Origin: Sporomusaceae bacterium
Lineage (GTDB): Bacteria; Bacillota_C; Negativicutes; Sporomusales_B; UBA7701
Assembly: GCA_022839045.1 (NCBI GenBank)
Contig: JALHDI010000038.1
Location: 20,569-52,532, forward strand
Length of the DNA stretch: 31,964 nucleotides
Direction of reading: 5' to 3'
Numbering within the stretch: position 1 is the stretch's first letter; each line of letters begins with the position of its first letter. Shown piece by piece: positions 9,280 through 19,338 of the stretch. The position numbers were made by a program, and so were the translations under genes. Below the pieces are notes generated by a model that made no database searches, had not been told where the DNA came from, and saw only the letters and a list, made by a program, of their open reading frames with translations.

Positions 9280-10443
9280 CTAGATGTACTTTTTCACGAA
9301 GCGGCCGATGCGGGTAAGGGCTTCGGACAAGTTGGCGGTCGAGGAGGCGTACGAGCAGCGGACGAAGCCTTCGCCGCTTTCGCCGAAGGCGTCGCCGGGC
9401 ACGAGGGCCACTTTTTCGGCTTTGAGGAGTTCTTCGGCGAAGGCGAGGGAATTCAGTCCGGTCTGCTTGATGGAGGGGAAGATGTAGGCTCCCTTGGGCT
9501 CGAAGCAGTCGAGGCCGATGGTTTTGAACCCGTCCACCATCAGGCGGCGGCGACGGTTATACTCCTCGACCATCCGCAGCATGTTGCACTGGCCGTGCCG
9601 CAGCGCTTCGATCGCCGCCACCTGGGCGGTGACGGGGGCGCAGAGCATGGTGTACTGGTGGATCTTGGTCATCGCGCCGATGAAGTCGGGGTTGGAGAGG
9701 GCGTAGCCGATCCGCCAGCCGGTCATGGCGTAGGCTTTGGAGAAGCCGTTGAGGAGGATGGTGCGGTCGCGCATGCCGGGCAGGGAGGCGAAGCAGGTGT
9801 GGGTGCCGTCGTAGGTGAGGCTGGCGTAGATTTCGTCGGAGATGACGATGAGGTCGTGTTTGCGGGCGAAGGCGGCGATGGCCTCGAGCTCGGCTTTGGA
9901 CATGATCGCGCCGGTAGGGTTGTTGGGGTAGCCGATCAGCAGCGCTTTGGTGCGGGGGGTCACCAGTTCTTCAAGCTGGGCCACCGTAACCCGGAAGCAG
10001 TCGGCCATTTTCGTCGGCACCGTCACCGGCACGCCGCCGGCTAAAGCGACGCAGGCTTTGTAGGAGACGTAGCACGGCTCGGGCACGAGGACCTCGTCGC
10101 CGGGGCTGAGGATGGCCCGCATCGCCAGGTCGAGCGCTTCGCTCACCCCGACGGTCACCAGCACTTCTTTGCGGGGGTCGTAGGTCACCCCGTAGCCGGC
10201 GGCGCAGTTTTTGACGATCTCCTCGCGCAGCTCGAGCAGGCCATAGTTGGAGGTGTAGGCGGTGTAGCCCTGCTGGAGGCCGTAGACGCAGCTTTCGCGG
10301 ATATGCCAGGGGGTGACGAAGTCTGGCTCGCCGACCCCGAGGGAAACGACGCCTTTGGTTTCGGCGACGATGTCGAAGAAGCGCCGGATGCCGGAGGGGG
10401 GGATGGCCTTGACGGCGGGCGAGATGCGGTCGGCCCAGGTCAT
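9280..10443 (-). CDS. alaT: PLP-dependent class I/II aminotransferase, AlaT (YugH)-like
   Basis: A 387-aa fold-type I aminotransferase. Landmarks are GEPDFVTP (39-46), YPNNPTG (172-178), the PLP-ring Asp in SDEIY (202-206), the Schiff-base Lys at 236 in FSKAYAMTGWRIGY, and a C-terminal substrate Arg in FVRCSYA. The start codon overlaps the stop of the upstream Lrp-type gene by 4 nt. That exact pairing, Lrp regulator followed by aminotransferase, is the arrangement of Bacillus subtilis alaR-alaT (yugG-yugH), which makes alanine from pyruvate. Assignment to alanine transaminase rests on that synteny and on the T-box upstream; aspartate or aromatic specificity is not excluded by sequence alone. 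Confidence 0.85.
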   Translation of the reverse strand: MTWADRISPAVKAIPPSGIRRFFDIVAETKGVVSLGVGEPDFVTPWHIRESCVYGLQQGYTAYTSNYGLLELREEIVKNCAAGYGVTYDPRKEVLVTVGVSEALDLAMRAILSPGDEVLVPEPCYVSYKACVALAGGVPVTVPTKMADCFRVTVAQLEELVTPRTKALLIGYPNNPTGAIMSKAELEAIAAFARKHDLIVISDEIYASLTYDGTHTCFASLPGMRDRTILLNGFSKAYAMTGWRIGYALSNPDFIGAMTKIHQYTMLCAPVTAQVAAIEALRHGQCNMLRMVEEYNRRRRLMVDGFKTIGLDCFEPKGAYIFPSIKQTGLNSLAFAEELLKAEKVALVPGDAFGESGEGFVRCSYASSTANLSEALTRIGRFVKKYI

Positions 10444-10919
10444 GGCGACACCACCAGCCTGCGGTCTTCTTCCTCATCCTCGAGGATGACGCCCGCCTCT
10501 TTGTATTGTTTGAGCATGAAGTGGGTGGTGGTGCCGATGACGCCCTCGATGGTCGACAGCTTGGTGGAGACGAACTGGGCCGCTTCCTTGAGCGTCTTGG
10601 CCTCGACGATGACGAGCAGGTCGTAGGCCCCCGACATGAGGTAGAGGCTGCGCACCTCGGGGAAACGGTAGATGCGCTCGGCGATGGCGTCGAAGCCCAC
10701 TTCCCGCTGGGGGGTGATCCTGACTTCGATGATGGCGGTTACCCGGTCGGCGCCGGCCTTCTCCCAGTTGACGATCGTCTGGTATTTGACGATGGTTTTG
10801 TCGGCTTCGTACTGTTTTATCAGGGCGGCGATCTCGTCCTGCGGCTTGTCGAGCATGACGGCCAGCTGGGCAATTGTCAGGGTGTGGTCTTTTTCCAGAA
10901 GTTCCAGTAGTTCGCGCAT
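10440..10919 (-). CDS. alaR: Lrp/AsnC family regulator, AlaR (YugG)-like
   Basis: A 159-aa regulator with an N-terminal winged helix (LLELLEKDHTLTIAQLAVML) and a C-terminal RAM domain (about residues 65-145, with YLMSGAYDLLVIVE). The start ATG at 10917-10919 has GAGGTGG six bases upstream. It overlaps the aminotransferase by 4 nt, so the two are translationally coupled. The Lrp-plus-aminotransferase pair matches B. subtilis alaR-alaT. Transcription probably starts far upstream, passing through a T-box and a repeat element. AT-rich inverted repeats directly before the gene could be its own operator. Confidence 0.85.
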   Translation of the reverse strand: MRELLELLEKDHTLTIAQLAVMLDKPQDEIAALIKQYEADKTIVKYQTIVNWEKAGADRVTAIIEVRITPQREVGFDAIAERIYRFPEVRSLYLMSGAYDLLVIVEAKTLKEAAQFVSTKLSTIEGVIGTTTHFMLKQYKEAGVILEDEEEDRRLVVSP

Positions 10920-10982: not shown

Positions 10983-11164
10983 GGCCGCCTAGGAGGCCTC
11001 AGATGCAAGGCGCACCGGAAAAGCGCGGCACCGTTTACTCCGAGGCTGATTTAACAGGAGTTGTTTGCACAGGCTCCATGTAACAGGATCGCAAGCGTAC
11101 TTCCGGATGTACGCAAGCAAGCGTTTTGAGGAGCAACGCAGTAGATGAGGTCTAATAGGCGGCC
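10983..11164. repeat. Dispersed hairpin repeat, copy A (182 bp)
   Basis: The ends GGCCGCCTA and TAGGCGGCC are perfect 9-bp inverted repeats. After a 2+2-nt internal loop a second helix of 8 bp follows (AGGCCTCA against TGAGGTCT with one G-U). It shares with copy B the blocks GATGCAAGGCGCACCGG, GTACGCAAGCAAGCG and GAGGAGCAACGCAG, but has about 60 extra bases in its middle. It sits between the T-box terminator and the AlaR-like gene and is therefore part of the antiterminated leader. No coding capacity and no transposase nearby. Confidence 0.85.
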
Positions 11165-11171
11165 GAGAAAC

Positions 11172-11198
11172 AAAAAAACCGTCCTTGAACAAGGACGG
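11172..11198 (-). terminator. Terminator of the T-box leader
   Basis: On the minus strand CCGTCCTTG pairs with CAAGGACGG and is followed by seven Ts. The 5' arm contains CGTCCTTG, which can instead pair with the T-box sequence to form the antiterminator, as in canonical T-boxes. Confidence 0.93.
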
Positions 11199-11409
11199 GT
11201 TTTTATCCCGCGGTACCACCTAGATTAGCCGCCGTGCGGCTCGCCTCTGCCCAGTAACGCCGGGGACGCGGTAGGGCTTACTATGTTTCGGCCCACGGCT
11301 CGCGGGGGGCTTTCCGAACGCTTTTCCTGCCGGCTCGCACCTTGCCCGGCTCTCTTGGAGGATGCGGCGCCCGTACTTTCCCGCTCATCGCCTTTGCGAT
11401 GTCGATTTG
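11172..11409 (-). promoter_or_regulatory. T-box riboswitch leader upstream of alaR-alaT-like genes
   Basis: Read on the minus strand, the leader shows the full set of T-box landmarks. GATGAGCGGG and AAAGTA open stem I, and the AGAGAGCCGG bulge region is distal. The T-box motif AGGTGGTACCGCGG is at 11221-11208, then a terminator. Lower stem I pairs GCGGG with CCCGC and the next helix pairs CGGGCGC with GCGTTCG. The specifier loop between them reads GAAAGCCC on its 3' side. Canonical placement directly after GAA gives AGC (Ser); a one-base shift gives GCC (Ala). The base that reads the tRNA discriminator is U (TGGT), expecting A73. That fits tRNA-Ala rather than bacterial tRNA-Ser (G73). The downstream genes also suggest alanine. 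Uncharged tRNA would cause antitermination. Confidence 0.93.
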
Positions 11410-11415
11410 GTACTT

Positions 11416-11444
11416 ATGATAGCATGAATGGGACCGGGGCGCAA
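11416..11444 (-). promoter_or_regulatory. Sigma-A promoter of the T-box leader
   Basis: Minus-strand TTGCGC (11444-11439), a 17-bp spacer and TATCAT (11421-11416) put transcription start near 11409, a few bases before the first T-box landmark. The -35 is only half-consensus. Confidence 0.6.
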
Positions 11445-11487
11445 GCGAAAAAATTCAGACAAATGAAGAGGACTTATCGGCAACCCC

Positions 11488-11610
11488 AGGTTGCTTAGAA
11501 AGCTCCAGATGCAAGGCGCACCGGAAAAGCGCGCTGCACCGCGTACTCGGGACGTACGCAAGCAAGCGCTTTGAGGAGCAACGCAGCAGATGGGGCTTTA
11601 TCAGCAACCT
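11488..11610. repeat. Dispersed hairpin repeat, copy B (123 bp)
   Basis: AGGTTGCT and AGCAACCT are the perfect terminal inverted repeats. Inside a TAG/ATC internal loop, AAAGC pairs with GCTTT and extends two or three more pairs. Core blocks match copy A almost base for base. The right end supplies the stop codon and the last three codons of the PP-loop gene at 11601-12389. Just left of it, around 11461-11487, GACTTATCGGCAACC resembles the right end of another element and may be a fragment. Confidence 0.85.
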
Positions 11611-12389
11611 GGCCTGTCTTTGCCCCAGAAGGCGCGGTGCATCGCCTTTAGCTCCGCCCGCGACGGGGTTGGAGGCCACAACTCGGTAGCCGGACTTTCG
11701 CGCATGGCGGCGGCCAGGTGGCGGAATACGTGCCTGTTGGCCCGTTCCCAGCCGCGGATCAGGTCCTTTATTTCCTGGCGCTTGGTCTTGCCATCGAGGG
11801 GGCAGGGGCTGGGGATGGGGGTGAAGCCGTGCAGGCGGGGCGTGGCGCGCAGTTCCTTCTCCCGGAAAAAGACGAGCGGCCGGATGACGGTGAGGCCGGT
11901 GCGGTCGAGCTTGGTTTTGGGGAGGAAGGTTTTGAGCTGGCCGGTGTAGAGCATGCTCATGACGAAGGTTTCGACGGCGTCGTCGTGGTGGTGGGCGTAG
12001 GCGATCTTGTTGAAGCCGTTTTGGACGGCGAAGCTGTTGATAAATGCCCGCCGGAAGTAGGAGCAGACGAAACAGGGGTCTTTGCCGCCGCCCTTGGCGA
12101 TGGCGCCGGCGATGTCGGCCTTGAGGGCGTGGTGAGGCACGCCGAGGCCGGCGCAGAACGCCGTCAGCGGCGCCGGGTCGAAGTCGGCGGTGAACTGGGG
12201 GTCGAGGGTGACGGCGGCCAGTTCGAAGGGCCGGGGGGAACAGTCGCGGATGGCGGCCAGGGCGTAGGTGAGGAAGACGCTGTCTTTGCCGCCCGAAAGG
12301 CCGACGAGGATTCTGTCGCCGGCGGCGAGGAGGTCGAATTCGAGGATGGCCCGCCAAAGGCGGCTGTAGTACTTTTGGGGTAGTTTCAT
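11601..12389 (-). CDS. PP-loop ATPase of the TtcA/TilS family (tRNA 2-thiocytidine type)
   Basis: A 262-aa adenylating enzyme with the PP-loop SGGKDS at residues 32-37. Cysteines C106 and C109 (PCFVC) and C196 (SPCP) match the three cysteines that hold the [4Fe-4S] cluster in TtcA, which thiolates cytidine 32 of tRNAs. HHHDDAVETF near 133-142 is a further family landmark. The start ATG (12387-12389) has GAGG six bases upstream. The last three codons and the stop lie within repeat copy B, so the original C-terminus may have been altered when the element arrived. Other sulfur-transfer substrates in this broad family are possible. A good promoter lies just upstream. Confidence 0.85.
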   Translation of the reverse strand: MKLPQKYYSRLWRAILEFDLLAAGDRILVGLSGGKDSVFLTYALAAIRDCSPRPFELAAVTLDPQFTADFDPAPLTAFCAGLGVPHHALKADIAGAIAKGGGKDPCFVCSYFRRAFINSFAVQNGFNKIAYAHHHDDAVETFVMSMLYTGQLKTFLPKTKLDRTGLTVIRPLVFFREKELRATPRLHGFTPIPSPCPLDGKTKRQEIKDLIRGWERANRHVFRHLAAAMRESPATELWPPTPSRAELKAMHRAFWGKDRPGC

Positions 12390-19044: not shown

Positions 19045-19069
19045 AAGTGAATTGAAAGGAACAACGCAA

Positions 19070-19255
19070 GGCCGTTCAGAAAGCCCTGGATGCACGTTCT
19101 GATTACGCCGGCTTATCAGCGCAACTGGTAAGCTGGCGTTTTTCGTACGCACAATGTGCGGGTCACTCCGAGGACGCGACCGGAGGCGTACTTACAAGGT
19201 ACGTTGAGGGAGCGCCCGCAGGAGTAACAACGCAGACAGGGCTTTATCAACGGCC
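19070..19255. repeat. Dispersed hairpin repeat, copy C (186 bp)
   Basis: GGCCGTT and AACGGCC form the terminal stem. After a CAG/ATC internal loop, AAAGCCCTG pairs with CAGGGCTTT over 9 bp. The interior is more diverged than in A and B but keeps GGATGCA on the left and AACAACGCAGACAGGGC on the right, plus several internal hairpins. It fills most of the 294-bp gap between the DUF3343 gene and pcrA. No open frame of note. Confidence 0.8.
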
Positions 19256-19338
19256 TCACATATTTTGCACCAAATAACAGGAAATACTATCCTGGTGGGC
19301 GAATCTACTCATGTTCAAAGCATATACCGGAGGACAAG

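Follow-up and report, generated by a model that had tools for sequence, protein, structure and literature searches.

A mobile hairpin repeat with maintained structure, of REPIN-like design, with a branch that duplicates stem-loops

The hairpin repeat found in the window (the whole stretch of 31,964 nucleotides that was analysed) is a mobile repeat in which structure is maintained, with a REPIN-like design and a branch that duplicates stem-loops. With a probability of roughly 60%, its copies A and B represent a non-autonomous mobile hairpin element, similar to REPINs, that is recognised by its shape on one strand. Covariation is commonly read as the mark of a functional RNA. It is strong in this repeat, and yet the data on strand and genomic context favour a mobile element.

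Copy A, a long form with a core of 144 nt, occupies positions 10983-11164 (+ strand; covariance model E 3e-24). Its outer stem is formed by the left arm GGCCGCCTA (10983-10991) and the right arm TAGGCGGCC (11156-11164), and its inner stem by AGGCCTCA (10994-11001) and TGAGGTCT (11146-11153). Copy B, of standard form, spans positions 11488-11610 on the same strand (E 6e-35), with the outer arms AGGTTGCT (11488-11495) and AGCAACCT (11603-11610) and the inner arms AAAGCTCCA (11499-11507) and TGGGGCTTT (11591-11599). Copy C is a divergent long form at 19069-19256 (+ strand; model match 19069-19255, E 2e-8) with the consensus ends AGGCCGTT/AACGGCCT. The anatomy proposed for A and B in the initial annotation (an outer stem, a small internal loop, an inner stem and a longer middle) was confirmed, as were the interior blocks common to the two copies, which showed 84% and 89% identity by BLAST. 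Folding of A and B gave z values of -4.94 and -6.78, respectively, and none of 200 dinucleotide shuffles folded as well in either case. The typical element consists of a left linker of ~11-20 nt, an imperfect hairpin, mostly of 120-180 nt, and a few nucleotides on the right. Rfam covariance models did not match the repeat, the sole match being a T-box leader (11188-11397, - strand) located between A and B, outside the repeat. This leader precedes a Lrp/AsnC-type regulator gene (10440-10919) and an aminotransferase gene (9280-10443), and copy A is inserted between the leader and the start codon of the regulator.

A pattern of 24 positions, with 23 bases specified, was used to scan genome contigs and retrieved 11 stretches, all of them from three metagenome-assembled Selenomonadales genomes (JARKNV01, JAHDOI01 and JARKPR01). 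The genome-wide search suggested in the initial annotation was performed with a covariance model built on 12 copies. It provided 128, at least 150 and 122 matches in these three genomes and 108 in a fourth relative, a few of the matches being a single palindrome counted on both strands. A match at E <= 1e-3 was present in 41 of 60 relatives (the high-copy genomes included), and eight of 299 genomes sampled across the phylum, G001 among them, matched at E 1e-6. The high counts per genome and the eight matches in 299 indicate a high-copy repeat of limited lineage. Copy B had no match in plasmids and phages at E 1e-5, and 27 viral stretches obtained with a 16-base pattern were taken as chance, the right half of the repeat being absent from them by eye. 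No paper describing this repeat was found in the open literature among the matches listed. On contig C1 of G004 (4.36 Mb), the strands of the copies seem to be arranged in blocks, possibly tracking gene or replication direction.

Covariation of the arms was analysed in 80 stretches (1.55 Mb), in which the model hit 202 times at E 1e-5; a small number of these hits were the same palindrome read on the opposite strand. In the alignment of the best 150 of these 202 hits (149 distinct), pairing was observed in 95.2% of the stem cells, and changes on both sides were found at 33 of the 40 stem pairs. Doubly changed cells amounted to 609, compared with 159.5 after shuffling and at most 116 when the partners were slid, although related copies are not independent of one another. 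This bears out, in 149 copies, the earlier proposal that the ends covary and the structure is maintained, and covariation was not lost when more copies were aligned.

A second search used an interior-only profile, so that copies were not picked by their arms; the profile itself had been built from copies located by the structural model. The 205 hits were reduced to 167 copies by keeping one hit per place and only hits that matched the whole profile and had sequence on either side; 158 distinct arm pairs were present among these copies. Watson-Crick pairing reached 70-99% at most stem positions and was 15-29% beyond position 21, and the weak pairing at positions 10 and 12 corresponds to two internal-loop sites. 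The commonest ends in the family are GGCCGTTCAGAAG...CTTATCAACGGCC, from which the ends of A and B differ by compensated changes. The ends of A and B are, as had been noted, self-complementary and yet different, but ends free of sequence are not a property of the whole family, which has this common form.

Across 152 distinct arm pairs, positions 1-9 and 12-19 of the arms contained 209 G.T/T.G wobble pairs and 33 A.C/C.A mismatches on the + strand of the element. Since wobble and A.C trade roles on the opposite strand, folding is better on the + strand. Random re-partnering of the arms gave frequencies of 0.123 for wobble and 0.067 for A.C (1.8:1), against 0.082 and 0.012 with the real partners, and 246 wobble and 184 A.C combinations were found outside the stems. 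The baseline is therefore not 1:1 and favours wobble, although far less than the stems do. Mutation bias was discarded as the origin of the wobble excess, because the unpaired core sites lacked the excess of C-to-T and A-to-G changes that would be needed (C>T 5/265, G>A 37/424, A>G 28/848 and T>C 37/159; changes few and unpolarised). The wobble:A.C ratio was 115:16 in copies with both flanking genes antisense, 40:7 between convergent genes, 30:6 with both genes sense and 28:3 between divergent genes. As the bias is alike in every orientation, transcription from the neighbours does not explain it, and it is a property of the element.

The same tendency was observed between ortholog copies, where 31 single changes led to wobble, five to A.C and eight to other mismatches in 25 pairs (26 minus one with too many differences), several of which share a locus and are not independent. 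In the copies with the most divergent cores (lowest quartile), pairing was undiminished and the wobble:A.C ratio was 4.9. The undiminished pairing and the biased ortholog changes seem to indicate that the constraint acts on resident copies too, beyond jumping. Of the two forms initially considered for the structure, RNA or a DNA cruciform, a symmetrical cruciform is disfavoured by the wobble bias, according to which one strand matters; the folded + strand may be either DNA in single-stranded form or an RNA transcribed from the element itself.

Orthologous sites were variously empty, filled or scarred, so that presence of the repeat is patchy between species; judged from these sequence comparisons, the repeat is mobile. 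At site B, the copy is absent from G001-G005, and G004 retains a stretch that resembles its right end. The best DNA match of copy B in G001 (94%, ends included) lies on contig C45, and the syntenic gene on C68. At site A, the copy is present in G002, and apparent stem remnants were found in G001, G003, G004 and G005. Comparison of the site A orthologs (L143 with L137, L138, L141 and L144) revealed apparently different deletion scars in the four relatives, each of which retains part of the outer stem. These varied scars suggest that loss through palindrome deletion may be frequent. At site C, a terminator-like hairpin stands in place of the copy in four of the five relatives (by eye), and a hairpin was also found at the orthologous site in L216. 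Replacement of terminators as a general rule was rejected, since clean hairpin-free sites were found (copies 57, 140, 7 and 160).

Clean empty sites of ordinary copies showed no target duplication and ~11-20 nt of additional left linker at the insertion; two of them were located between a stop codon and the following ribosome-binding site (by eye). A flanking direct repeat (score of at least 28) was present in 14 of the 167 copies and absent from the other 153. A 22-nt AT-rich direct repeat, AAAAATATTTAGCATAAT, that looks different from a terminator (scores of 39 direct and 16 inverted) flanks one L187 copy, so that long duplications may extend beyond hairpins. Inner inserts that are themselves hairpins were observed in L037, L311, L312 and L314, and nested hairpins in L315-L318 and L324. 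The inner inserts occur at recurrent positions (GTGCGCAAGTTCTTGGCGC... or GATAAGCAGACACACAACG...), which suggests that these recurrent hairpins are modular second-order insertions.

The position of the repeat beside genes was determined using gene calls from a purpose-written codon-score script rather than a standard caller. Of the 158 copies that could be classified, 118 had a minus-strand gene on their right when the element was read on its + strand. In 92 of the 167 copies, such a gene ended close to the right end of the repeat, its stop codon falling in the interval from 15 nt within the element to 30 nt beyond it. In 21 of these 92 the codon was inside the element, as a TGA or TAA provided by the internal-loop segment, whose sequence in the direction of the gene is TGATAAG or CATAAG. 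Copy B supplies in this way the TGA stop codon (11601-11603, - strand) of the PP-loop gene at 11601-12389, which we take to be TtcA-like.

A structured RNA with a function kept by the host (a 3' UTR element, an antisense RNA or a small RNA), with its folding under selection, would account for the strong covariation and the tolerance of wobble, for the unpaired purines conserved between the variable stems and for the biased changes between ortholog copies. However, both neighbouring genes are antisense to the wobble-biased strand in 86 of the 167 copies, the bias differs little between configurations, and the A.C mismatches would fall on the strand of the read-through mRNA. The lack of an Rfam match, the composition of the left flank, in which no promoter-like conservation was seen by eye, and the patchy presence between species also argue against this explanation, which we consider unlikely. 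The analysis of strand bias by gene orientation helps in this way to separate a functional RNA from a mobile element.

Covariation might also arise without any selection on structure, at the DNA level, if template switching between the arms corrects quasi-palindromes. Mutations that extend the identity of palindrome arms have been attributed to template switching in yeast, as described in PMC3820800. In our set, some internal loops had become perfect palindromes, nine distinct arm pairs (CAG/CTG) keeping the left arm and one (GAT/ATC) the right arm. Pairing at the two loop sites was linked (odds ratio 22, some of the links being alignment shifts), and 15 of the 39 double changes between orthologs were C-G to G-C, which is hard to reach via wobble. 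Nevertheless, template switching predicts equal numbers of wobble and A.C on one strand, which is not the 209:33 observed, and the consensus loop CAG/ATC, which frequent correction should erase, is kept in 73 of the 152 arm pairs. As an explanation without selection on structure it is improbable, although arm-to-arm switching probably contributes some of the double changes.

The mobile element that we favour includes one subfamily whose ends are AGACTGGTGAGAAAGG and whose left linker is CTTGTAGACAAAGTC. The nearest matches to the subfamily query were copies in G002, G003 and G005. Near-constant ends were found within this AGACTGG subfamily only. Flanking direct repeats of 18-35 nt were present in 28 of its 34 distinct copies, the count varying with the filter (25/33 or 28/34, from 61 hits before removal of duplicates and cut copies), and an equal score was reached in 15 of 4000 trials with mismatched flanks. 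For each of the 28 duplicated repeats, at least 95% of the shuffled versions of the same sequence folded less well, and most of the repeats spanned a stem-loop from foot to foot. Six of the 34 copies lacked the repeat; unlike hairpins were found on the two sides in L310 and L315. A single hairpin was present at three orthologous empty sites (L287 vs L160, L300 vs L317 and L317 vs L169). Further ortholog sites gave a less clear picture. One insertion is common to L170 and L294, and likewise to L046 and L298. In the remaining comparisons, a different copy was found next to one hairpin (L293 vs L208), a single, different hairpin at the ortholog site (L295), another copy between hairpins (L306 vs L250) and an ortholog site without any hairpin (L316 vs L151).

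The duplicated hairpins appear to be terminator-like, given their location at gene ends and their form (a GC stem, in many cases together with a T run). The targets of the subfamily are stem-loops of unrelated sequence, as in IS1272/IS1182-type transposition, and its copies are consistent with the model of insertion at stem-loops put forward for IS1272. Variable but paired ends had initially been set against the conserved termini of transposon-derived repeats. The variability stands, but the family is itself mobile. Near-constant ends together with long target duplications, named at the outset as the refuting sign of an ordinary MITE, were found in the AGACTGG subfamily, so that the contrast fails for that part of the family.

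A search for a mobilising enzyme in the window and in the relatives identified none. None of the ten scanned window genes near the copies matched a transposase family, in agreement with the initial annotation. PF13751, presumably the IS1182-family transposase, was absent from G003, G005 and G006, and reverse transcriptase from G001, G004, G005 and G006. G004 contains an 1800-bp PF13751 element in eight near-identical copies (L328 and L331-L337), one of which is located within a repeat arm (L335) and another directly adjoins a repeat (L336). This element was rejected as the mobiliser, its ends (CTAGGAG) being unrelated to the repeat. No matching ends were found in three single carriers of PF13751, where the comparison covered the element halves. 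No autonomous long form was recognised in ~2 Mb of loci: the left and right halves were at most 250 nt apart in 255 of 265 left-half hits, three of the others had the right half 1.2-2.6 kb away and seven had none. Partial matches to the subfamily were discarded as ends of a long element, since they were mostly copies with nested inserts. The Y1 domain (PF01797) was present in G004, G014 and G017, as fragments in G002 and G005, and absent from G001, G003 and G006 (assemblies that may be incomplete), two of which carry more than 120 repeat matches. Mobilisation of a REP/REPIN-type element by a RAYT (Y1) transposase would agree with the one-strand hairpin and its 5' linker, the lack of target duplication in most copies, the location downstream of genes and the compensatory changes, which are reported for REPINs as well (PMC3116915), but it is the least probable of the alternatives, given the three genomes without Y1, the flank composition of the 167 copies without a GTAG or CGTC tag, the duplication of stem-loops in one subfamily and the ends, which vary here and are the conserved part of REPINs.

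For the shape-recognised mobile element, we infer that an enzyme would read the shape of the folded + strand (a single-stranded DNA or RNA intermediate) together with a few conserved unpaired purines. With such an enzyme, the letters of the stems may drift as long as they stay paired or wobbling. In the subfamily, the enzyme would attack the target by shape too, joining the element at both feet of an extruded terminator-like hairpin, and gap repair would then duplicate the entire hairpin. We tentatively propose that recognition relies on shape rather than sequence for the element itself, through its folded + strand, and in one branch also for the target, namely the terminator hairpins of the host. 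Terminator hairpins copied whole would leave the host with its terminator. The subfamily also illustrates how an element can insert at the ends of genes while leaving termination intact; a copy may even provide the stop codon, as copy B does. If the proposal is true, covarying ends are an evolutionary signature of recognition by shape only.

Compared with known systems, the repeat is like the MITEs ERIC, BOX, RUP and SPRITE, as described in PMC10969869, in being short, non-coding, dispersed, intergenic and foldable, and like MITEs it has dispersed copies and empty orthologous sites. Unlike MITEs, it has no terminal inverted repeat conserved throughout the family (158 distinct arm pairs in 167 copies), and the length of the duplication follows the target hairpin (18-35 nt) instead of being a fixed number. 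Integron attC sites were considered as well and set aside, as the GTT/AAC order runs the other way. With REPINs (PMC3116915) and tagged REPs (PMC3733652), as these are presented there, the repeat shares the high copy number, the extragenic hairpins with predicted single-strand folding, the compensatory changes and a 5' tail adjoining the hairpin. It differs from them in its conserved core, covarying ends and stem-loop-duplicating subfamily, in that three of the six main genomes lack a Y1 gene and in that, by eye, its left flank is GAATTGCC-like rather than tagged.

Wan and colleagues described that IS1272, of the IS1182 family, replaces stem-loops of unrelated sequence (PMC5678879), and the target of the AGACTGG subfamily seems likewise to be set by stem-loop shape rather than by sequence. 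IS1272 encodes a transposase, whereas the repeat is non-coding, and the IS1272 events described in that work replace the stem-loop with no duplication, whereas the subfamily duplicates it. In pathway b of the IS1272 model, joining at the 5' feet of extruded stem-loops leads to duplication of the entire stem-loop at both ends of the element (PMC5678879). With the subfamily, 28 natural cases become available of an outcome that had been a model proposal for stem-loop-directed transposition, and the mechanism can now be tested.
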